46,019 bases of DNA from Cytophagaceae bacterium (GTDB taxonomy: Bacteria > Bacteroidota > Bacteroidia > Cytophagales > Flexibacteraceae): the NCBI GenBank assembly GCA_027485575.1, contig JAIXQU010000060.1:1-46019 (forward strand). Direction: 5' to 3'. The position numbers and the translations under genes were made by a program. The notes beneath the pieces were generated by a model. It was not told where the DNA came from and made no database searches. It saw only the letters and a list, made by a program, of their open reading frames with translations. Of this stretch, positions 1,608 through 17,464 are shown one piece after another. Position 1 is the first letter of the stretch. Each line of letters starts with the position of its first letter.

Positions 1608-4600
1608 CTAGAAACCGACAACTATTTTTTGCCGGACATTCCAGCCATTGTTGACCAATTCAACCAGATAGACTCCTTTTGATACAAAGTTCAAATCTAA
1701 AATTTGGTCTTTGGCGCTCACATTTTCGGCAATAATTTTTCCTTCGATGCTTAAAATACGGATGCCGGTGTTTTCTATACTTTCATCCATTATCCTGAAT
1801 TTTTTATTTTCGGTTGGAATAATTGATAAAAATGGTTTTTCAGGGTCGCTGGTCGCCATATTAACCGACCTGACCGGAGACTTTATTGTTTTTTCATCCT
1901 TAGCAGAAGCTTCAATCTGGTAATAATATCTTGGAGACCCCATCAAATTATTAGCATCGGCTGCCTGGAAACTGGTTTCACAACCAGAATCGTCTACCTT
2001 TAAATCGGAGATTTTTGACAATGAACTGGCATTAACTCCTCTTTTAATTATAAAGTTTCCATTTTTGAAGCATTCAGCCATTTTCCAGTTTAACTGAACC
2101 GAATTTCGCTTCCTGAAAGCCCTGAAGTCAATAAAATCCAAAGGCAATGCTTCTTCTCCACCTCCAAGTGCAAAATCACTGAATCCAGTTAGTCCGGACC
2201 TTCTAACCGATCCATCAGATTGGATATAGGTAAATGTATTTTCAGGATTACTTAAAGATCCGGTAATTGCCCATTCATTTCCCCCCGTAGCCCTTTTGAA
2301 AATACTATATTGAGGGAATGTCGAGGTAAAGCTAGGAAGCAACCAAACATCATAATTGGCTGAACCCATATCAGGATTAATACTCCAGTAACCATTAGGT
2401 ACGACTGTTGAGAAGTATGAACCTCCCTCCAGAAAAGGAGTTACAATTGAGGCTACAGGACTCGTATTTGGGTCATTGCCAGTGAATCTGGTCGTCAGAT
2501 ATTGCAATCCACCAGAGATTGAATTGAAGTTAATCAGTGAATTTTCGAGCGTGGTAAGATTGCCAACCGGAAAATAATAGGAACTGCCTGTTGTTACTTT
2601 TCTTTTTAAAGCACCATTAACCCAACTTGTATTTGAAAATGCCGCAGCTGAACTTAAGCTACTTTCAATGGTAATTAGGTGACTTCCCATATCCAATCTT
2701 CCATTTGTCAATATAAGAGTTTGGTCTATGGTAATTGGATTTACAGCAAAAGCATGACCCGGGGAGTTGATTTGAAGATTGTAAAATCTACCCTGAACTT
2801 CCACAGGCGTTGCCGCATTTGTTAATGCCACTCTTCCTCCACCAGACCCGGTAAAACTTCCTCCACCCGGAACCACTCTTTCAGAAATGGTTAAGGTACG
2901 GGTTCCATGATTGATGATTGAATTGCTGGTTTGGAGCCAATTTTTTACCGATGTGTTGATGTTGATGGCAATTCCTCCTGTATTTGATATGTTTAGAACA
3001 TCAAAATTTGTAGGGACAGTTCCACCTATTGTCTGACCGGTAAAGTTTCCTCTGAGATTTAGTTTTGCATTTGGGTCAATATTGAAGGCAGTTGCCCCGT
3101 TGTTTATCCAGTTTGCCCCATCCAGATTCAATTTGGTTCCGGCAGGTAAATTGAGGATACTACCAGCACCAAAAGTCAGGTTTCGGGAATCTATATTATT
3201 TCCAATCAAGGTTAGAGAATCTGTAATGTTGAGCACCTGGTTGTCCCCAATGTTCATAGAACCTGCATTTTTTACTTTTTTAATAATGATGTCATTCACT
3301 CCTGTAGATTCAGAATAGAAATCAGCAGCGGCATCTACATTATCCAAAACCAGGGTACAACCATTTTTAGTACGCACTTGAGTATCGATATTATCAAGAA
3401 TTCCTGATATTTTTAGATCTTTGAAAGTAACTTTAGGAATTCCATCCAGGGTAAGGTAAGCCAGGTCATCCATTTCATTAACGAGGTTTACAGAATTGAT
3501 GGCACTTTTTGGCTTAATCACAAGGGTGGCATCTCCAAAGGTACAACCGGGAGTAAAGATTCTGCTAAACGTAGCTGGAGAGGAATACCTGGAATACAAA
3601 CTGGGGCTTGAAGTATTTTCTGTTAGAAGAAGAGTAACCTCGGAGGCATCTGTTCCTTTAAAGGATAGCCATGTCGCCGCTGCAGATAAAGTATTAAAGG
3701 TAGGCTTAGGACTGCTTCCACCGACAGTGAAAACAGAAGCGAGATAGGGTTCATTTTCAATAAAAATCAGTTCGGATTGACTTCTGGATGACCCACCCTT
3801 TGTAGCACCGCCGTTAATATCTTCATTCGAGCCTTGAGCAGATTGACCAAAATTGCATCCAATGGCTAGGCCAGTTACATCCGCATCTGGTTGAGAAAAC
3901 CAGGCAACACCACCTCCACCTCCACCTCCGGCTCCATAATATCTTTTCTTATCGGTGGTAACACCAGGGATGCCAGCCTCACAAATGGTGGCAACTGAAT
4001 TTCCACCATTTCCACCATTGACCCGGCATTTAACAAGGTCAGGATAAGTATCAACCATCAGAAGAACAGCCCCGCCGCCGCCGCCGCCACCGGCACCATC
4101 ACCAGCTGTACTTTCACCATTTTCGCCTTTTGCAAGTATTTCATAATTGTTGGAAGTAAGTGCATTAGCTTTTAAAATCACAATTCCACCACCAAATCCA
4201 CCAGAACCATTGCTTTGGGCTCCTGCTGTGGCATTAAAAGCATGGCCACCACCACCACCGCCACCAAGAAAAATCCGGCAATTGGCTGGTAGATAGAAAT
4301 AAGAAGTGGAGCGTAAAACATTTTTGAATCCAACCGGAGTTGAAGGATTGGTTCCTCCCCCCAGACCACCTCTCGCCAGGTCACCATCGCAAGGATATAC
4401 AGTCGAGGCACATAGTGATGTTGGACTATCGATGTAGCTTGACTTGCCACCTCTTCCACCATCCTGCCAGTTGGCGCCACCGCCACCACCTCCTTCCGGT
4501 TCTACACCGCCACCGCCACCAGTTGCATACCTTCCTTTTCCTCTCAAGGAGGCAACCGGTATATTGGTTATGCCTTCTCCTTTTTGGCCTGCCCTTGTAT

Positions 4601-7600
4601 AGTTTGAGAAATTAGTGGCAAATTCAACTGGTCCGCTGCATGTTGGGCTAATATCTCCTTTATCGCCAAACATTCCTCCGGCAAAGCCCATCCCGGTCAT
4701 ATGGATTGAATCAAGCATGGTTAAATTTCCATCTACCTCTAATGCCAGTATTCCTCCTCTTTTTCCATTCCATTGCATGCCAGTCAAACCTGTAACAGCC
4801 AATGCTTTGGCTTTATAAGCAGGTAGGTCAAATGGAGGTACTGTCGGGTCTGGAAGCGTAATTATAGGCGGTTTGTAATAGCCAGCACCTGCATCAACTA
4901 CCTGAATTTCATTAATTTGCCCTAAATTATCGGTTAATGCACGCAAGGTTAAACCAGCTCCACCCATAACCGGAGTAACGGTAAATCCGGTTGTGATTAT
5001 AGAATTTGGCGGATATCCCATGCCTTTACTGGTAAGGCGGATGGCTGAAATTGAATTTGAGGGCTTTACATTATAGTTTCCGGTGTATTTTGGAATCTTT
5101 ACCAACTGGACAAAAGCCGAGGATGAATATTGTTTTTTTGTACACCGTTTAAAAAATACAATGTCCCCACTCACAGAATCAATATCAAGATATTCATGAT
5201 TTCCAGCAGTTCCAATATCCGTAATGTATCCATACGTTATATCAGTTGGTGAAGCTGGCAAAGAAATGCCTGCTCCTTTCATTTGTATTATCATCGCCCT
5301 ATCTCCTGCTGCAAATTGACTTCCTAATCCTGTACCTACTGTGCATTTTAATGAACCAACAGGAAGTGAACTTGGTGCAACAACTTCTGCATATTTGTTA
5401 ATTACTCCTGTCAGGCCAAATGGGTCAGGAATGACATTAAGAATTTTGCTGTCACTAATCTGGCCACATCCACCGGCATTTACTGTAAGTGTCAGCGTGA
5501 TTGTTGGTGCGGAATTTATTGAAGCCTGATAAGTTGCTGCACCTGGGGTGGACCCGGAATTGTTAAAAAACACACCATCTGGTGCTGACCATACGCCTCT
5601 TGTAGCCCATCCTCCGAAAGAACCTCCCAATGCACCAGTAAAACCTCCTTGCACCACATCTGGAATAGCCGGACCGGCAGAAACTGTAGATGGCTGGTCG
5701 ACCCTTATCTGAATTGATGGACTAACATTGGCGCATAAAGCTGTATTTGTTATTCTTCTATACCAGGTAGTTGAACCAATTACCCCTGGACTATATGTTG
5801 GAGAAATTTCTCCCGGAATATTTGAAAATCCTGACGAAGCACTCGTTGTTGAGGATTCCCAACTATAAGAATATGATCCACCGCCTCCTGTTGGAAGACT
5901 TCCATTTAAAATTGGAGAGGCATTTCCTATACAAATACTATCAGAGGAACCTGCCAAATTATCTGCAATGGCGGGAGTAACTGTAACTGCAATTGTATCG
6001 GAATAATTTACAGGACATGCTCCCGAAGTGACTCTTCTTCTATACCACCTATTGGCAACAATAACTGTAGGAGAGTAATTGACACTGGTAGCGCCTGCAG
6101 ATGAAAAGGTTCCTGGCAAAGAGTTTGAAAATTCCCACAAATACGCATAGCTTGTACCGTTACCCCCTGCCGCAACTGTACCAATTAAAGTGGCTGGTGC
6201 AGTGTTGGCACAAATGGTTTGGTTGGCGGATGCATCATTATTTGTAATTGGTTGGTTTACAGTAATCGTTACAGGTGCAGAGGGGTTGTTTGGACAAGAG
6301 TTTGAAACCACAATTCTTCTGAACCATGTCGTATTTGAAAGAGGTCCGGAAGCGTAAGTTTGTCCTGTTGCGCCAGAAATGGCCGTATAACCAGCAGATG
6401 AACTTGTTGTGGAAGACTCCCAGAAATAGGAGATTCCACCTCCACCTCCCGTAGCCAAAGCTCCATTAAATCCAGCTGGCGTGGAACCACTGCAAATGGT
6501 TTGAGATAAGGTAATTGTATTGTTGGTAATTGAAGGAATAATAGCAATGAAAACGGTATCGGAAAGAGTTGAGGCACATACACCCGAGGTTACCCTTCTC
6601 CTAAACCACCTTGCAGTATTTTGATTTGGTAGTGACAGGTCCATTGTTCCTACACTAATAGAAGAATAGGTTCCATTAAGGCTGTTAGATGCTTCCCATG
6701 AGTAGGAAAAAGAGGTTCCATTTCCGCCTGTTGGCAGACTTCCAGTAATTAATGCAGGGGTTGTTCCGGAACAAATGGTTTGGCTTCCGGTAATGTCATT
6801 GTTAACAATGGGTTCATTTACAGTAATTTGTACGGCCAATGAGGTGTTTGCAAGGCAAGGTGGGGAAGAAACTATCCTTCTGAACCAGGTAGTCTGTGTT
6901 AATGGTCCAGGTGCCAATGCAGCTGACGTTGCTAAAGAAATTGGGGAAAACCCTGTTAAGGCACTTGTTGTCGAGGATTCCCATTGGTAGGTATAGGTGC
7001 CTGATCCACCACCGCCATTTGGATTGTTACCTGTTAAGGTAGCAGGGCTTGATCCGCTACAAATGGTTTGGGCGGCCGAAATAGTATTGTTTCCTATAGT
7101 TGAATTGATAATTACGGCCACAGCAGTAGAGGTACTATTTGCACAAGGACCAGAGGTAACTACCCTTCTGAACCATCTGTTGCCAGACAAAACGCCTGAG
7201 GTGTAATCCTGCGTATTGGTTGAACCAATTGCAGAAAAACCTGAGGTTGCATTGTTTGAAGAAACTTCCCATGAATATGTATAAGCACCATTTCCATTGG
7301 TTGGCAAAGAACCTGTGAACGTGGCTGGTGCTGTTCCTGTACAAATGGTTTGTGTTGAAGGCGTAACCACATTGTTTGCAATGGACTGTTGAACCGTAAT
7401 TTGAATTGCGTCTGAAATATTTGCAGCACAAGGAGCTGAAGAAACAACTCTTCTATACCAGGTAGTTGTTGTCAAGGCAGGTGGTGAATATCCAGAACTA
7501 GTGGCTGCAGGTACGATTGGGGCAAAACCAGTAAATGCATCTGTTGTTGATGATTGCCACACATAAGAATAACTTCCACTACCTCCTGTTGGTGTTGTTC

Positions 7601-10600
7601 CGTTCAATGATGCCGGTGCAACTCCTGCGCATCTTGTTTGTGCGGATGAAATTATATTGTTTCCAATATTATTTTGTATGGTTATCAGAATGGCAGGTGA
7701 AACATTGGCTGCGCACAAAGTTGAAGTAACGACCCGTCTAAACCAAGTATTTTGGGTCAATGGGTCAGGGGAATAACCTGACGAAGTTGCCAAAGAAATA
7801 GGTGAAAATCCTGCAGTTGCACTGGTAGTTGAAGATTCCCATTGAAAGGAATATGTTCCGGCACCTCCTCCTCCATTTGGATTGGTACCCGTCAAAGGAG
7901 CAGGACTTAGACCAGTACAAATGGTTTGGGCGGCCGAAATTGTATTGTTTCCAATAACTGGATTGATAACCACGGCCACAGCGGTAGAGATATTATTTGT
8001 ACAAGGAGCAGAGACAACTACCCTTCTGAACCATCTGTTGCCAGACAAAACACCTGAGGTGTAATCCTGCGTATTGGTTGAACTAATTGAAGAAAAACCT
8101 GAGGTTGCATTGTTTGATGAAACTTCCCATGAATATGTATAAGCACCATTTCCATTGGTTGGCAAAGAACCTGTAAACGTGGCCGGTGCTGTTCCTGTAC
8201 AAATGGTTTGTGTTGAAGGTGTAACCACATTGTTTGCTATGGGCTGTTGGACCGTAATTTGAATTGCGGCAGAAATATTTGCCGCACAAGGAGCAGAGGA
8301 GACAATTCTTCGATACCAGGTAGTTGTTGTCAAGGCTGGAGGTGTATAGCCAGACCCTGTAGCCGCAGGTACAATTGGGACAAAGCCACTGAATGCATCT
8401 GTTGTTGATGATTCCCAGACATAAGAATAACTTCCATTCCCTCCATTTGGGTTTGTTCCGTTCAATGATGACGGTGCCACGCCTGCGCATCTTGTTTGGG
8501 CGGATGAAATTATATTGTTTCCAATATTATTTTGGATGGTTACCTGAATTGATGACGAGACATTATTTGCACAAGGGCCTGATACAACAGTTCTCCTGAA
8601 CCAGGTTGTTTGGCTTAGGGAACCTGATGAATAATCTATTGAGTTTGCCCCTGGGATTAATGTAAATCCAGCAGAAGAACTAGTTGTGGATGATTCCCAA
8701 ATGTAGTTAAAAGAGCCATTTCCACCCGTTGGAGTGCTACCAATTAAGGTTGTTGGAGAATTGCCTGTACAAATGGTTTGAATGCCAGAAATTGTATTAT
8801 TTCCAATCAATTGATTGACAGTTATTGCAATTGTATCTGAGTATGAAACTCCACAAACACCAGATGTAATTCTCCTTCTATACCATCTGCTCACAGTCAT
8901 TGTTCCAGGTGAATAATTCGGCAGGTTGTTGGTGCCACTTGCATTTGCATAAGGCCCGGCTAAAGAAGTAGCAGATTCCCATAGATAGGCATATACACCA
9001 GTTCCGCCTGTTGGGGTTGAGCCAGTTAATGCCGCAGCAGATGTATTGTTACAAACCGTTTGAGAAGAAGAAATGTCATTATTTAAAACAGGAAGATCGG
9101 CCTGGATTGCCAAAACATTAGAAAAAGTTCCTGGACAGTTGCCTGAAACCACAATTCTTCTTATCCATGTCGGGCTCAAAATGGGATCAGCAGTAATGGA
9201 TTGAGAAAAAGCTGTTTGAATAGATGTAAAACCAGCAGTTGCACTGGTAGTTGAAGATTCCCATTGATAGTTATAAGTCCCGTTTCCTCCGGTTGGAAGC
9301 GAACCTGTTATGTCTGGTGTTGCACCAAAGCAACCTGGAGCAGTGGTGCTTATTGAATTGTTTGCTATGGCTGTATTCAGTGTGATAACAACTGGAGCTG
9401 ATGTTTTTACGCATCCATTTGAAGTAACAGTTACTGAATATGAGCCTGCTGTTGAAACACTTATTGAAGAAGTGAGCTGACCAGAACTCCAAACATTACC
9501 AGTCGGATAAGAAGAAGTTAATACCAACGAACTGGCCGGGCAAATGTATGTGGCTGGTGACGTAATAACTGGAACTGCAATATCCGGATTAACAGTAAGT
9601 ATGGCAGGATTTGAGCTGTTTGTGTCTCCTGAAATAAACCACCTTGCTCTGTATTGGTTCCCATTATCTCCAAAGGATGTTGAAAAAGTATAACCTGGAT
9701 TTATTGCTCCGGGAATATTGGTCCAGTTTGTTCCATTATCAACACTGCGTTGCCATTGAACTGACGGGCTTGGAGATGCAGTAGCCGCCGATAAAAAAGT
9801 GACAGGCTGTCCGGCACAGATGGTCTGGCTGGTTGGCTGGGTAGTAATGTTTATTGTACTGCTTGTGCTGGTTACAACCACAAGTTCCGGAAAAAAAGAA
9901 GCTGCTTCTTTGGAGTTAATATCTACGCGGCTTGCAGTTGGAACCGGGCTGGAAAGGGAAAATTCCAAAGTTGTTTTACCAGCCGCAACACTTGAAATTA
10001 TAAATGAGGATAAATCCCACTCATAGTATTGTTTGGTGGTTCCTGCCATGGTTTGAGTAGCTAAAACTGTAGGAAGAACGGCCGGTTTGGTGTTCCAGGT
10101 AACAGTGCCCTCATTCCAAACATTTGTAGTTCCAACTTCTCTAATTTCTACTATAAGGGAAGGATTAAAGTTGTCACTTAGGCTACCATAAAGTCTCAGC
10201 TTTGATTCTAATGGTGCTCCAACCAGTGTACTAAGATTGAAACGAATTAATGATTCCCTTACGGTATTCGGATCTGCATTTGCTTTAACGATAAGTGTGG
10301 CGGCTGACCCATAATTGGTGTTTGCATTTGTTCCTGCATTTACAGCTGCATCATGACTTGGATTGAAAATTATGGGAGACCCGGTAGCAAGAAAGGCCAC
10401 TAAATTTGGATTAGAACCGGGTATGGTAAAGTTCTGGGATTTGGTTCCACCTTGACTCCAATATTTAAAATAATTTGAGCTTTGAGGCGTAGGAAAATCT
10501 AAAGTATGCACGCTTCCTTCAATTAAGGTACTGCTACTGGGAGTGCTCAAAACAGAACCATCCAGATTTACATTGAAACCGGAAGGCGAAGTTGCCAGAG

Positions 10601-12464
10601 AAAGAGTCCTTAATCTGGGTTGAATATCTCTGAAAATAGTATCAAGGGCCCCTTGCGGGTCTCTTGCAACTAGAACAAAACGATAAAAAACATTATTATT
10701 GGCTTCAATAGTGTTTGGAATTATGTAAGACCCGGAAAAACCAGCAGGAAGATTTACGTTTGAGACTTCGAGCCCATTTCTAAAATATTTTACACTCCAT
10801 GTTAGGTTGGGACTTAAAAGCGGACCCGTTTCCGGATCCACACCAGATCCAGAATAAGATATAGATTGTCCCATGGCATAAGTTGAGCCTAATGCCGGGG
10901 TAGATATTGTGGGTGTTGGTTTTTGGTTTATCAACAAAACTGAAAGTTTTGCAACATTTGTTTCTGCCACCCCAAAACCCAATCCGTATCCAACCTCGAC
11001 TGTATAATACCCTGTGTCGGTGGGTTGAATGTTGGAAAGATTTAAGGTTGCTGATGTTGCTCCAGAAATCGCTACACCATCCTTTTTCCATTGGTAAAAA
11101 AGTGGTTTAAGACCTTTTGCAACGACTGAAAAAGCACCGTTATTGTTAACCGAAACTAAAGTATCCTTTGGATTTGAAAGAATTACCGGAATTAACTCAT
11201 AGGGTGTAATGACCAATTGTGGAGGATTACTTCCCGCCTCTTTGGATAAAAAATCCGCAAGTGCATTTGAACCAGGATCCTGACTTAATTTCAGGTTGAC
11301 CAGGTTTTTCATGGCTATTTCCTTTTGAGCTATAATATAGGATGTTACATCCCATTCATAGTACTTTTGGGTTGTGCCGGAAACTATTTGACTCGTTATT
11401 TTTCCACCTGATTCTGCAGGTTTGTTGTTCCAGTTCACACCATTTTCGGTCCACGTACCATTGGGGTTTAAGCCGGTGGCATTGACGAGTGCATTTCCTG
11501 AAGTACTGCCATTTATTGCTCCATAAACCCTAAGTTTAGCAGATCCAATATGATAAGATACACTGCTTAGATCAAACCTTAATAAGGATTCAGAAATTGA
11601 ACCGGAACCATTGTTCAAAGAACCCAAACCTGGACTGGAACCAAAATTTGTTGAGGCTTGTGCTCCATTTTTTACAATGGCATCAATTACGGGGCCTAAA
11701 GTGATTGGATTTTTTACCGGAGGTGTTTTTTGATAATAACGGATATAATCCACCTGGAAAGAAGAAGGAAGTTGGCTATCGTCAATTGGAGCTGTGTAAC
11801 CGATACATGTTAGCCATATATTAACTTTTCCGGTTATCAGGTTTCCAACATAACGCTTGTCTACCTGTAAGTTGTTATAATAAAATGTAATGCTGTCTGC
11901 CTCATACAAACATCCCACCTTTATAAAGGCAGAATTCAAAGCAGCTGTATTGTAAACTTTAATTCCCAGATTTGCAACCGGGTTATACTTTCTGTGTAAA
12001 CAGGTAAAGCTGTTCAAATTTCCAGATTCGTTTTCTAAAATATCTATTTCCAATGTAGCCTTGGCAACGCCGGTTCCTCCGGTTCCATCCTGCTTCATCA
12101 ACCAGAAGCCACTGTGCCAACCTGCACCTTGAGGAGTTTTTAATGTGGCTTCGTAATAGCCGTAGTGTAAAGTATCTTCGGAAATGAGGCCACCTCCCGT
12201 ATAATTTTTACCGCCAACAGTTTCCTTTTTTAAGGCCACATTTAAAACACCGTTTTTTAAGGTGCTATTTGCTGGCAATTGGGTACTTAAAGCTTTTGAA
12301 TCTCTACGAAAATCCCATCGGGTAGAATCAACCCTGGCACCAGTGAATTCATCACTGAAAGCAAGATAGTATGTGTTGCCACGTAGGGTTACTGTTCCCG
12401 GCTGAGCATTTGAATAACCGAAAATGAAGAAAAGCAAGTAAAATATCGGGAAAGATCTATTCAT
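1608..12464 (-). CDS. giant secreted GH16 / Ig-like-repeat / glycine-rich protein with T9SS type A sorting domain
   Basis: A 3618-residue exported protein. A signal peptide (residues 1-20, ending YSNA) precedes a glycoside hydrolase family 16 domain (about 30-250) with the intact catalytic motif EIDILE (E139, D141, E144), as in beta-1,3- or beta-1,3/1,4-glucanases. Then come a DNRLRE-like beta domain (about 253-418), an Ig-like domain and a PKD-like segment (about 420-625), a second DNRLRE-like domain (about 695-860), further Ig-like domains (about 868-1025), and 13 tandem repeats of about 93 residues (about 1026-2255) with the core QTICxGxxP, PTGGxGxYxYxWESSTTS and TTWFRR. Next is a region with long glycine runs (about 2578-2895), then beta-rich sequence and a C-terminal type A sorting domain (about 3543-3618). 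It is likely a cell-surface or released polysaccharide-binding hydrolase or adhesin; the glucan target is inferred. The start is fixed by the signal peptide. It is monocistronic, with its own terminator. Confidence 0.9.
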   Translation of the reverse strand: MNRSFPIFYLLFFIFGYSNAQPGTVTLRGNTYYLAFSDEFTGARVDSTRWDFRRDSKALSTQLPANSTLKNGVLNVALKKETVGGKNYTGGGLISEDTLHYGYYEATLKTPQGAGWHSGFWLMKQDGTGGTGVAKATLEIDILENESGNLNSFTCLHRKYNPVANLGIKVYNTAALNSAFIKVGCLYEADSITFYYNNLQVDKRYVGNLITGKVNIWLTCIGYTAPIDDSQLPSSFQVDYIRYYQKTPPVKNPITLGPVIDAIVKNGAQASTNFGSSPGLGSLNNGSGSISESLLRFDLSSVSYHIGSAKLRVYGAINGSTSGNALVNATGLNPNGTWTENGVNWNNKPAESGGKITSQIVSGTTQKYYEWDVTSYIIAQKEIAMKNLVNLKLSQDPGSNALADFLSKEAGSNPPQLVITPYELIPVILSNPKDTLVSVNNNGAFSVVAKGLKPLFYQWKKDGVAISGATSATLNLSNIQPTDTGYYTVEVGYGLGFGVAETNVAKLSVLLINQKPTPTISTPALGSTYAMGQSISYSGSGVDPETGPLLSPNLTWSVKYFRNGLEVSNVNLPAGFSGSYIIPNTIEANNNVFYRFVLVARDPQGALDTIFRDIQPRLRTLSLATSPSGFNVNLDGSVLSTPSSSTLIEGSVHTLDFPTPQSSNYFKYWSQGGTKSQNFTIPGSNPNLVAFLATGSPIIFNPSHDAAVNAGTNANTNYGSAATLIVKANADPNTVRESLIRFNLSTLVGAPLESKLRLYGSLSDNFNPSLIVEIREVGTTNVWNEGTVTWNTKPAVLPTVLATQTMAGTTKQYYEWDLSSFIISSVAAGKTTLEFSLSSPVPTASRVDINSKEAASFFPELVVVTSTSSTINITTQPTSQTICAGQPVTFLSAATASPSPSVQWQRSVDNGTNWTNIPGAINPGYTFSTSFGDNGNQYRARWFISGDTNSSNPAILTVNPDIAVPVITSPATYICPASSLVLTSSYPTGNVWSSGQLTSSISVSTAGSYSVTVTSNGCVKTSAPVVITLNTAIANNSISTTAPGCFGATPDITGSLPTGGNGTYNYQWESSTTSATAGFTSIQTAFSQSITADPILSPTWIRRIVVSGNCPGTFSNVLAIQADLPVLNNDISSSQTVCNNTSAAALTGSTPTGGTGVYAYLWESATSLAGPYANASGTNNLPNYSPGTMTVSRWYRRRITSGVCGVSYSDTIAITVNQLIGNNTISGIQTICTGNSPTTLIGSTPTGGNGSFNYIWESSTTSSSAGFTLIPGANSIDYSSGSLSQTTWFRRTVVSGPCANNVSSSIQVTIQNNIGNNIISSAQTRCAGVAPSSLNGTNPNGGNGSYSYVWESSTTDAFSGFVPIVPAATGSGYTPPALTTTTWYRRIVSSAPCAANISAAIQITVQQPIANNVVTPSTQTICTGTAPATFTGSLPTNGNGAYTYSWEVSSNNATSGFSSISSTNTQDYTSGVLSGNRWFRRVVVSAPCTNNISTAVAVVINPVIGNNTISAAQTICTGLSPAPLTGTNPNGGGGAGTYSFQWESSTTSATAGFSPISLATSSGYSPDPLTQNTWFRRVVTSTLCAANVSPAILITIQNNIGNNIISSAQTRCAGVAPASLNGTTPTGGSGSYSYVWQSSTTDAFTGFAPIVPAATSSGYSPPALTTTTWYRRVVSSAPCAANISDAIQITVQQSIANNVVTPSTQTICTGTAPATFTGSLPTNGNGAYTYSWEVSSNNATSGFSAIGSTNTQDYTSGVLSGNRWFRRVVTSGPCANSTSTAVAVIINSTIGNNTISAAQTICSGSSPATLTGNNPNGGGGSGTYTYQWESSTTSALTGFSPISLATSAALAPGPLTQTTWFRRIVSSPPCLANTSLAVQITVNEPIVNNDITGSQTICSGTTPALITGSLPTGGNGTSFSYSWEASNSLNGTYSSISVGTMDLSLPNQNTARWFRRRVTSGVCASTLSDTVFIAIIPSITNNTITLSQTICSGSTPAGFNGALATGGGGGISYFWESSTTSSSAGYTAISGATGQTYASGPLSNTTWFRRIVVSNSCPNNPSAPVTITVNQPITNNDASANQTICANTAPATLIGTVAAGGNGTSYAYLWEFSNSLPGTFSSAGATSVNYSPTVIVANRWYRRRVTSGACPVNYSDTIAVTVTPAIADNLAGSSDSICIGNASPILNGSLPTGGGGSYSYSWESSTTSASSGFSNIPGEISPTYSPGVIGSTTWYRRITNTALCANVSPSIQIRVDQPSTVSAGPAIPDVVQGGFTGALGGSFGGWATRGVWSAPDGVFFNNSGSTPGAATYQASINSAPTITLTLTVNAGGCGQISDSKILNVIPDPFGLTGVINKYAEVVAPSSLPVGSLKCTVGTGLGSQFAAGDRAMIIQMKGAGISLPASPTDITYGYITDIGTAGNHEYLDIDSVSGDIVFFKRCTKKQYSSSAFVQLVKIPKYTGNYNVKPSNSISAIRLTSKGMGYPPNSIITTGFTVTPVMGGAGLTLRALTDNLGQINEIQVVDAGAGYYKPPIITLPDPTVPPFDLPAYKAKALAVTGLTGMQWNGKRGGILALEVDGNLTMLDSIHMTGMGFAGGMFGDKGDISPTCSGPVEFATNFSNYTRAGQKGEGITNIPVASLRGKGRYATGGGGGVEPEGGGGGGANWQDGGRGGKSSYIDSPTSLCASTVYPCDGDLARGGLGGGTNPSTPVGFKNVLRSTSYFYLPANCRIFLGGGGGGGHAFNATAGAQSNGSGGFGGGIVILKANALTSNNYEILAKGENGESTAGDGAGGGGGGGAVLLMVDTYPDLVKCRVNGGNGGNSVATICEAGIPGVTTDKKRYYGAGGGGGGGVAWFSQPDADVTGLAIGCNFGQSAQGSNEDINGGATKGGSSRSQSELIFIENEPYLASVFTVGGSSPKPTFNTLSAAATWLSFKGTDASEVTLLLTENTSSPSLYSRYSSPATFSRIFTPGCTFGDATLVIKPKSAINSVNLVNEMDDLAYLTLDGIPKVTFKDLKISGILDNIDTQVRTKNGCTLVLDNVDAAADFYSESTGVNDIIIKKVKNAGSMNIGDNQVLNITDSLTLIGNNIDSRNLTFGAGSILNLPAGTKLNLDGANWINNGATAFNIDPNAKLNLRGNFTGQTIGGTVPTNFDVLNISNTGGIAININTSVKNWLQTSNSIINHGTRTLTISERVVPGGGSFTGSGGGRVALTNAATPVEVQGRFYNLQINSPGHAFAVNPITIDQTLILTNGRLDMGSHLITIESSLSSAAAFSNTSWVNGALKRKVTTGSSYYFPVGNLTTLENSLINFNSISGGLQYLTTRFTGNDPNTSPVASIVTPFLEGGSYFSTVVPNGYWSINPDMGSANYDVWLLPSFTSTFPQYSIFKRATGGNEWAITGSLSNPENTFTYIQSDGSVRRSGLTGFSDFALGGGEEALPLDFIDFRAFRKRNSVQLNWKMAECFKNGNFIIKRGVNASSLSKISDLKVDDSGCETSFQAADANNLMGSPRYYYQIEASAKDEKTIKSPVRSVNMATSDPEKPFLSIIPTENKKFRIMDESIENTGIRILSIEGKIIAENVSAKDQILDLNFVSKGVYLVELVNNGWNVRQKIVVGF
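6830..8545 (-). repeat. tandem 858-bp duplication of a three-repeat block within the giant gene
   Basis: Two consecutive blocks (about 6830-7687 and 7688-8545) are far more alike than the other 93-residue repeats. Long stretches around 7063-7680 reappear near-identically around 7921-8540, a constant offset of 858 bp, exactly 286 codons or three Ig-like units. In the protein these are about residues 1307-1592 and 1593-1878. This looks like a recent in-frame unequal-crossover or slippage duplication. Edges are approximate. Confidence 0.8.
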
Positions 12465-15432: not shown

Positions 15433-16113
15433 ATGGTCAGGTTCTTTTTTTTTCTTTTTTTCTTTTCAATTGGGATTACCAGCCCTTCCAATGTGCCGGA
15501 GCCCTGCGAAGCGGAACAAATGTTAAAGAAACTTGGCTTGGTAGATTTGCAGGAAATAGACCGAAGTATTCAAGTAGAACTCAAATACTCAACCACAGAT
15601 AATTTCTTAAAATTTGATGTATATGGTTGCCTGTCAAAAGCTTATCTTCAGAAAGAAGTTGCAGCTAAACTGTCTGACGCATCTGACGTGTTGAAAAAAA
15701 CGAATCCTGAACTCTCTCTTCTGGTTTATGATGCTGCCAGACCTTCCTGGGCTCAAAGACTACTTTGGGACAAAATCGATAAACCAGAATCATCAAAGCA
15801 TATTTATGTGGCAAACCCCAGGCGGGGTTCCATCCATAATTATGGATGTGCTGTGGATCTTACCCTGGCCTATTCCAATGGAAAACCACTTGATATGGGA
15901 ACCGATTTCGACTATTTTGGAAATCTGGCACAACCAAGACTGGAAAATGAAAATCTAAGAAAAGGCCTGTTGACAAAAGTGCAAATAAAAAACCGGCAGC
16001 TTTTAAGAAAAGTGATGCAGGAAGCAGGTTTTCAATTGACCAGTTCGGAATGGTGGCATTTTAATTTTTGTTCACTCAAGGCAGCCAGAAAGAAGTTTAA
16101 GATCATTCCTTAG
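15433..16113 (+). CDS. VanX-like D-alanyl-D-alanine dipeptidase (peptidase M15D)
   Basis: A 226-residue exported zinc peptidase of the VanX/DdpX group, which cleaves the dipeptide D-Ala-D-Ala. Zinc ligands are visible in SIHNYGCAVD (H135, D142) and EWWHF (H209), with the catalytic base E206 and the conserved arginine of YDAARP (R103). An N-terminal hydrophobic stretch (residues 3-16) suggests export. With no vanH/vanA partner nearby, cell-wall dipeptide recycling or nutrition is more likely than glycopeptide resistance; this is inference. Downstream lies the DnaA-box cluster. Confidence 0.88.
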   Translation: MVRFFFFLFFFSIGITSPSNVPEPCEAEQMLKKLGLVDLQEIDRSIQVELKYSTTDNFLKFDVYGCLSKAYLQKEVAAKLSDASDVLKKTNPELSLLVYDAARPSWAQRLLWDKIDKPESSKHIYVANPRRGSIHNYGCAVDLTLAYSNGKPLDMGTDFDYFGNLAQPRLENENLRKGLLTKVQIKNRQLLRKVMQEAGFQLTSSEWWHFNFCSLKAARKKFKIIP

Positions 16114-16504
16114 TTTTTTTGAAATTTTTGTCACATTTTTTTTGATTTAATGCCAATCGGTATTATGCCTGATATTCTTTTCCGATGTAAGATTGGTATT
16201 AGTCGATAAATAAGCTTGTCTCCTTCGATTTTCGAAGTTTGGGGTTGAAAATGTGGATAAGTCGGCGAAGTTATCCACATTATCCACATTATAGAACCAG
16301 TTTATCCACAAATGGCTGCATACATCACAATCGCCAAATAAAAAAATTTAGTTTGAATGGATGTAATTTTTTTGTGAGAATAAGTGGTTTTTGGAAGTCA
16401 TTGTCTCTAGAAATATGCTTAACACTGGATATCTGCTTTTGGCCCAATTTTGGTTTTTATTTGAAATCCCGGATTGGCTTTCTTTTTTGAATGTTAATGC
16501 AGTG
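16114..16504. other. 391-bp intergenic region with origin-like features
   Basis: This lies between convergently transcribed genes (VanX-like rightward, binding lipoprotein leftward), so promoters are not expected. It contains two imperfect direct repeats (AATCGGTATTA near 16155 and GATTGGTATTA near 16191), a CTTCGA/TCGAAG hairpin at 16223-16237, four perfect DnaA boxes at 16252-16310, and AT-rich DNA at about 16330-16380. No gene is recognised here. Confidence 0.6.
16252..16310. other. cluster of four perfect DnaA boxes: candidate oriC or DnaA-titration site
   Basis: The DnaA consensus TTATCCACA occurs exactly at 16271-16279, 16280-16288 and 16302-16310 on the + strand and at 16252-16260 on the - strand (TGTGGATAA). 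Two boxes abut head to tail. Immediately rightward is an AT-rich stretch (about 16330-16380) that could be a DNA-unwinding element, and immediately leftward a small palindrome (16223-16237). Four exact 9-mers in 59 bp are not a chance event. Whether this is oriC or a datA-like sink cannot be settled from this window. The flanking gene orientations show no obvious leading-strand switch. Confidence 0.7.
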
Positions 16505-17401
16505 TTATTTTTTATTTTTCAAATCATTAATTCCTTCAAGGAACCTTGGGCCTGGTCGACTTGCGAAATCATCATTTAGTTCAAATATTTTTTTGTTTTT
16601 GTAGGCATTTATATTTTTCAATTCCGGGTAAATCCTGAAAAGTGTAGAGTCCAGCTTTTCGAAACTCCCTCCAAAAACTATATCTGGATTTAGTTTTAGA
16701 ACCGCTTCCCTTTGAAGCGTAGGATAAGGTTTATCGAGGACTTCCTGTAAGCTGTTTTTTCCCCCGGCAAGCCACATTTTGTCACTCATCCAGGTGTCAG
16801 CACCGTAGGCAAAAATTGGGTCTATCCAAGTGATTGCCAGCATGGAGGGTCTGTTTTCAATTTTTATTTTTCCCGAAATATTTTCAAGGTTTTCAAGATT
16901 TTGGTGCAAAGAATCAAGAAGCGATTTTGCATTTTCTTTTGAAGGACACCAACTGAAGATCGAATCCATCGCATTTAAGATGTCCCTGGTTTTTCGGTAT
17001 TTAAAAACATAAATGGGTATCCCTGTTTTTTCGATTTGAGCAATATCTGCCAAAGAAGTTATTCCTTCTTCAGAGAAAATTATGTCTGGATTAATAGCTA
17101 TAATTGCCTCTATGTCTAAGGGATAGGTGTTTATTCTCTTTTTCCTACTCACTGCCTCCAGAGGGTAATTACAGGTATGTGTAACACCCACAATATTATT
17201 TTCGGGAACAATACTGAATAATATTTCGGTCATTGCTGGTGAAAGGCCAAGAATTTTAAGCGGCTTTTTGGGAACAGTGACTGTCCTGTTCAATCCATCT
17301 AAATGGGTAATCGACAGGTTTTCTGAGATTTTCGTGTTGGTAGATTGACAGGAAAAAAGGCCAAAGAATAAGCCAATAATTATTAATCTGATAAGATTCA
17401 T
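16505..17401 (-). CDS. BtuF-like ABC transporter substrate-binding lipoprotein
   Basis: A binding protein of the Peripla_BP_2 (BtuF/FhuD/HmuT) family, which captures cobalamin, heme or ferric siderophores for an ABC importer. A lipobox LFSC places the acylated cysteine at residue 18 when ATG 17401 is used. That start gives the better signal peptide than the upstream ATG at 17413, which would add MICK. Typical family segments are present: ILGLSPAMTEILF, EAIIAINPDIIF and LNPDIVFGGSF. No permease or ATPase is adjacent, so it serves a transporter encoded elsewhere. It is divergent from hldD with only about 60 bp between. The ligand is unknown. Confidence 0.82.
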   Translation of the reverse strand: MNLIRLIIIGLFFGLFSCQSTNTKISENLSITHLDGLNRTVTVPKKPLKILGLSPAMTEILFSIVPENNIVGVTHTCNYPLEAVSRKKRINTYPLDIEAIIAINPDIIFSEEGITSLADIAQIEKTGIPIYVFKYRKTRDILNAMDSIFSWCPSKENAKSLLDSLHQNLENLENISGKIKIENRPSMLAITWIDPIFAYGADTWMSDKMWLAGGKNSLQEVLDKPYPTLQREAVLKLNPDIVFGGSFEKLDSTLFRIYPELKNINAYKNKKIFELNDDFASRPGPRFLEGINDLKNKK

Positions 17402-17464
17402 TTTGCAAATCAAAGCGATAGATTCAATTTACTAATATTGCAGTTCAATTCTTAAAGCAAAAAA

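Follow-up and report, generated by a model that had tools for sequence, protein, structure and literature searches.

The 46,019-nucleotide window analysed here is one entire contig (C27) of a Cytophagaceae genome (G000; 3.9 Mb in 198 contigs), and it carries a compact cluster of four exact DnaA boxes between two genes. We lean, without great assurance, towards reading this cluster as a genus-specific DnaA-binding element that lies outside oriC and serves as a sink or control site for DnaA. The binding of DnaA, the number of molecules bound, titration rather than nucleotide conversion, and an effect on timing are all part of the proposal. An earlier note on this DNA had put the cluster forward as a candidate oriC and had named a datA-like titration site as the main alternative. 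That alternative fits better, the boxes being conserved and an unwinding element being absent; the origin of this genome is probably at C35:13189-13525, between fumC (fumarase C) and a TPR-protein gene on another contig than the window.

The DnaA-box cluster and its surroundings

All four exact matches to TTATCCACA found in a scan of the whole window fall in the cluster, three on the plus strand and one on the minus strand, with two of them abutting, just as the earlier note had described. When one mismatch is allowed, the window holds 21 matches against 13.9 expected, a count that was reached by 3 of 100 shuffles. The parts of the element and its flanking genes are listed below; the genus set comprises five genomes including the host (G000-G004), and the family set comprises eleven (G000-G010).

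15433..16113, plus strand: M15 D-Ala-D-Ala dipeptidase-like gene; flanking, adjacent in all five genus genomes
16223..16237: small palindrome CTTCGA TTT TCGAAG; not conserved in the genus
16252..16260, minus strand: DnaA box 1 (TTATCCACA); exact match, outward-facing member of a divergent pair, invariant in five of five genus genomes
16261..16270: 10-bp spacer of the divergent pair; length constant in five of five, pattern [GC]TCnnCnnA[GC]
16271..16279, plus strand: DnaA box 2; exact match, invariant in five of five
16280..16288, plus strand: DnaA box 3, abutting box 2; exact in two of five genus genomes, TTTTTCACA in one, no box in two
16302..16310, plus strand: DnaA box 4; starts 31 bp from the start of box 2 (30 bp in the other four genus genomes)
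16361..16366: ATGTAA; the sole invariant run of at least 6 bases beyond the boxes and the bases touching them
16505..17413, minus strand: BtuF-like periplasmic substrate-binding protein gene; flanking, adjacent in five of five (the G002 contig ends inside it)

The host genome has 60 exact boxes, compared with 33 matches to the same pattern read backwards, and the window cluster is the densest group among them, since four exact boxes within 59 bp occur nowhere else. A Poisson estimate for clusters of this kind in the genome is about 5e-9, which together with the uniqueness of the cluster argues that it is not there by chance. Fifty-three further exact boxes lie outside both the window cluster and the C35 cluster. 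In G000 and G001, with full box lists, groups of at least three exact boxes close together are found at the C35-type and window-type loci only, and the same is true of G004 among the 40 of its 47 boxes listed; in G002 and G003, same-strand exact pairs within 25 bp are likewise confined to these two types of loci. The excess over the reversed control, a single control pattern, is seen in all five genus genomes (exact/reversed: G000 60/33, G001 50/30, G002 29/8, G003 44/15, G004 47/18), hinting at many single DnaA sites.

The surroundings of the cluster largely bear out the earlier description. The flanking genes are convergent, the M15-like gene on the plus strand and the BtuF-like gene on the minus strand, and the 3 kb around the cluster hold no exact match to the Bacteroidota promoter consensus; both points speak against an ordinary role as a promoter. 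The dnaA gene is indeed outside the window, on contig C42 (2924-4411), which has one exact box; the encoded protein retains its DNA-binding domain in a profile scan. Two smaller claims held in part. The palindrome is present but is not shared by the genus, and the AT-rich tract after the boxes is real (77% A+T in the 60-bp bin from 16324) but does not stand out within its spacer, where other bins reach 75% (from 16114) and 78% (from 16474). Elsewhere in the window, a minus-strand open reading frame of 3618 aa (1608-12464) matches CBM96, Ig-like and GH16 models and, below threshold, a C-terminal secretion-sorting model; its product is probably a large secreted protein.

Conservation of the element

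The boxes sit between the same two genes in all five genus genomes (in G002 the contig stops within the BtuF-like gene). The three core boxes (1, 2 and 4) keep their sequence, order and near-fixed spacing in every one of them, with box 1 and box 2 always 19 bp apart from start to start. In the alignment, every one of the 27 core-box columns is invariant, compared with 46 of the 249 ungapped columns that make up the remaining spacer. The flanking proteins of the relatives share 50-59% identity with their counterparts in the window, and the 45 bp on either side of the boxes show an identity of 0.38-0.40. Because the boxes are invariant and the adjoining 45 bp have diverged, selection appears to keep the boxes and their phasing, and not an unwinding element. 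The ATGTAA run stands about 50 bp past the last box in all five genomes, amid otherwise diverged sequence.

The earlier note had proposed conservation of the boxes between these two genes in relatives as a check, and the answer differs with distance: the boxes are kept within the genus but are absent beside the BtuF-like orthologue outside it. The BtuF-like orthologues of G005, G006, G007, G008 and G010, genomes that represent four other genera, are free of exact boxes out to 1.5 kb; the G005 match is distant (29% identity), yet it stands beside an HldD gene, as in the window. The M15 orthologue of G009 has no exact box nearby either. As far as tested, the element thus seems to be young or local, and confined to the genus among these genomes.

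An exact divergent pair spaced by 10 bp is rare: it was found in 10 of 390 genomes of the order, five of which are this genus, and the reversed pattern in one genome. In G006 such a pair falls within the gene adjoining the boxes on the TPR side, some 1.3 kb ahead of the TPR gene, and in G014 it is distant from the TPR-side boxes (6.29 versus 3.67 Mb). A two-box place on contig C9 of G006 was considered as a counterpart of the window element and dropped, as it is inside a 1310-aa open reading frame.

A proposed sink for DnaA

Under the proposal, DnaA would bind the divergent pair (boxes 1 and 2 with their 10-bp spacer), presumably with high affinity, and further DnaA would bind at the box some three turns of the helix away, with the abutting box assisting in some species. 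Several DnaA molecules would be kept in this way at a locus that doubles on passage of the replication fork. Free DnaA would then fall after initiation and re-initiation at oriC would be damped, as has been proposed for datA and for the clusters of Bacillus subtilis. We consider a sink the most economical reading because the promoter and Rfam scans gave nothing, the genes are convergent, the geometry of DARS is absent, and neither an IHF site nor Hda came to light. With the Hda model, nothing in the host genome scored above the curated cut-off of 194.8 bits, the matches below it being DnaA itself (112.3 bits) and one weak match on C60 (20.5 bits); Hda-type inactivation is therefore not evident.

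There are points that speak against a sink. The element has few boxes, and the 53 other exact boxes could titrate DnaA too. According to a passage in PMC11317965, the DnaA of E. coli favours, in vivo, tandem boxes with 2-3 bp between them, and the window element has no exact-box pair with that spacing. The restriction of the element to one genus, as far as tested, and the lack of an E. coli-type IHF consensus nearby also count against it.

Among the nearest known systems is datA of E. coli, which is described in passages of PMC5295017 and PMC4585315 as a negative regulator of initiation. Like datA, the window element is a non-coding, lineage-conserved set of DnaA boxes outside oriC, of high affinity as judged from the consensus only. 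However, datA is given as about 1 kb with five boxes and a requirement for IHF (in the relevant parts of PMC5295017; the need for IHF also in PMC4585315), and its box matches spread over about 250 bp in our scan, whereas the window boxes span 59 bp and have different neighbours. In datA an IHF site lies between essential boxes; in the 3 kb around the window cluster there is no match to the E. coli IHF consensus WATCAANNNNTTR (which appears in a passage of PMC10380432), a scan by which a divergent host site would be missed.

The DnaA-box clusters (DBCs) of B. subtilis resemble the window element in being clusters outside oriC, which is what we find here. Passages of PMC5295017 report that deleting all six leads to early initiation, and the same source also states that these clusters have no significant role in initiation. 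B. subtilis has six clusters and belongs to a different phylum; in the window genome one was found. Titration sites have also been described near the E. coli origin (in part of PMC12371093). DnaA-box clusters outside oriC are thus already a known kind, and to judge from its sequence the window element would belong with them, and not with datA or DARS. Among the matches listed from the open-access literature, a scope that leaves most subscription papers outside, there was no datA-like or titration locus for Bacteroidota.

The comparison with the C35 candidate in the same genome suggests a more specific idea. Both loci have an outward-facing pair (one member on C35 has one mismatch) followed by plus-strand boxes, but the C35 candidate alone also has two exact boxes in tandem, a run of trio-like triplets and an AT-rich tract that is conserved. 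The window element may be a lineage-specific DnaA control element of the Bacteroidota that mimics the outward pair of its host's oriC without the unwinding part, and so a decoy of oriC that sets timing. We regard this as a tentative idea, clearly less probable than the general proposal of a sink.

Two further box groups are recorded here for completeness. In G033 (C5:255171), two exact boxes in tandem, separated by 2 bp, precede a ribonucleotide reductase small-chain gene by about 290 bp, echoing the control of nrdA by DnaA in E. coli, and the pair is also seen in G048 (C8:83872). In G067 (C73; L098:7706-7786), a genome of another family, five exact boxes, one minus and four plus with a first spacing of 19 bp, lie between threonyl-tRNA synthetase-like and AntA-antirepressor-domain genes.

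Other explanations for the cluster

The cluster may be a transcriptional element: a bidirectional terminator hairpin for the convergent genes on either side, or else a promoter under DnaA control that drives a small RNA missing from the annotation. Taken together with the two bases that follow, the divergent pair forms a perfect 11-bp inverted repeat with a 10-bp loop, and a stretch of 111 bases around it folds better than its shuffles (z -3.16), although the small palindrome contributes to this value. The location between convergent genes and the invariant ATGTAA nearby would suit such an element as well. On the other hand, box 4 (16302) is beyond the hairpin yet equally invariant, and what is retained is the exact DnaA consensus and not pairing alone. 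There is no T-run after the stem of the hairpin, and no Rfam match was found in the window. Since the genes are convergent and neither the promoter consensus nor an Rfam match was found, regulation of the neighbours is unlikely, though the part that forms the hairpin may conceivably act as a terminator; we hold the transcriptional explanation as a whole to be improbable.

Somewhat less probable still is a DARS-like site that would reactivate DnaA by swapping ADP for ATP. The three core boxes, one opposed to two, make a compact and conserved unit away from the oriC candidate, which resembles the compact three-box core of DARS1 and DARS2 of E. coli. According to passages of PMC8682772 and PMC10380432, reactivation by DARS needs boxes I and II opposed head-to-head. 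The E. coli geometry was read by a box scan, and the three-box naming is our own. A passage of PMC11317965 places DARS1 upstream of uvrB and DARS2 upstream of mutH; the uvrB-ybhK and mutH-ygdQ stretches of E. coli held no boxes in our scan. In both E. coli elements the opposed boxes face each other across 5 bp, and the third box follows after 3 bp. In the window element the pair is divergent, 10 bp separate its members, and the last box comes 21-22 bp later. We have found no facing boxes I and II with a box III next to II, and on this geometry we reject membership of the DARS class.

The cluster might also be a relic or an ectopic part of oriC, or the origin of an integrated replicon, functionless today. 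The outward pair followed by plus boxes at the host's own C35 locus, which is of the oriC type, has a start-to-start distance of 17 bp with the one-mismatch member on the plus strand; the oriC-type locus of G014 has an exact outward pair, also at 17 bp, and the pair inside the neighbouring gene in G006 is spaced at 19 bp. Against this, no plasmid or phage family was found among the 12 window proteins scanned, and the boxes are invariant while the remaining spacer has diverged. Since such a pattern bears the signs of purifying selection, a functionless relic is disfavoured, and we consider it very improbable.

A probable origin on contig C35

The box cluster on C35 (13252-13463) comprises three exact and four relaxed boxes. 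The mnmG/gidA gene, a frequent neighbour of oriC, is the fourth gene on its fumC side, about 4 kb off. In all five genus genomes, the C35-type locus has tandem exact boxes 4 bp apart and, 12-16 bp on, a run of 5-7 triplets with a middle A. As the count demands only the middle A of each triplet, three consecutive triplets are common by chance, and the argument rests on conservation and on runs of 5-7 consecutive triplets; the window cluster has no more than 3 in succession (4 on its other side), and these are not conserved. The AT-rich tract of the C35-type loci has a mean identity of 0.77 over the 45 bp downstream, compared with 0.38 at the window element. A passage of PMC8287927 gives box, spacer and trio as the order of an origin unwinding system, and the C35-type arrangement matches it.

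The position of this locus is kept far more widely than that of the window element. In all eleven family genomes, the 1.2 kb upstream of the TPR orthologue hold at least three exact boxes. Beyond the family, boxes are found upstream of the TPR gene in the three genomes checked from families f5 (G014 with three exact boxes, G048 with six) and f10 (G037 with two exact and three relaxed), and no exact box is found there in the three from families f2 (G030, G045) and f12 (G053). G014 is a single contig of 8.98 Mb with 77 exact boxes, and among the boxes listed the TPR-side group is the only one with three within 500 bp. In G045, twelve exact boxes lie within about 690 bp (C1:2058889-2059576), and there is no exact box by its TPR gene at 3.22 Mb; the origin of family f2 may sit in another gene context.

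GC skew, which we regard as a weak signal here, was sampled in the window, on C35 itself, on C6 of G048, on C9 of G006, and in G005 and G014. In the window, the skew is positive before and after the cluster and does not change sign at 16.25 kb. In G014, all five samples taken from 2.02 to 3.56 Mb are negative and that at 3.65 Mb is positive, near the TPR-side boxes at 3.67 Mb; directly past these boxes it is negative again, and later samples are mixed. On C6 of G048 it rises at 35 kb, by the boxes, from about 0 to about +0.1, and is negative again at 55-75 kb. No clear switch is visible in G005 or on C35.

The possibility that the window cluster is itself the chromosomal origin, as the earlier note had it, can draw on a DnaA-box cluster of four perfect matches in 59 bp beside an AT-rich stretch, on their conservation in the genus and on the weak skew at C35, but we give it very little credence and reject it in favour of the C35 locus, which combines boxes, trio-like triplets and a conserved AT-rich tract, has mnmG/gidA close by and stays next to the TPR gene throughout the family, while the boxes at the window locus are restricted to the genus and no skew switch accompanies them.

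Implications

A family-wide oriC candidate between fumC and the TPR gene, near mnmG, is useful for annotation in itself. If the idea of a decoy were true, the window element would be a control locus with a geometry unlike that of datA or DARS, in bacteria that have no evident Hda. Replication timing in Bacteroidota seems to have been little studied, and the element offers a defined target of 59 bp for such work.
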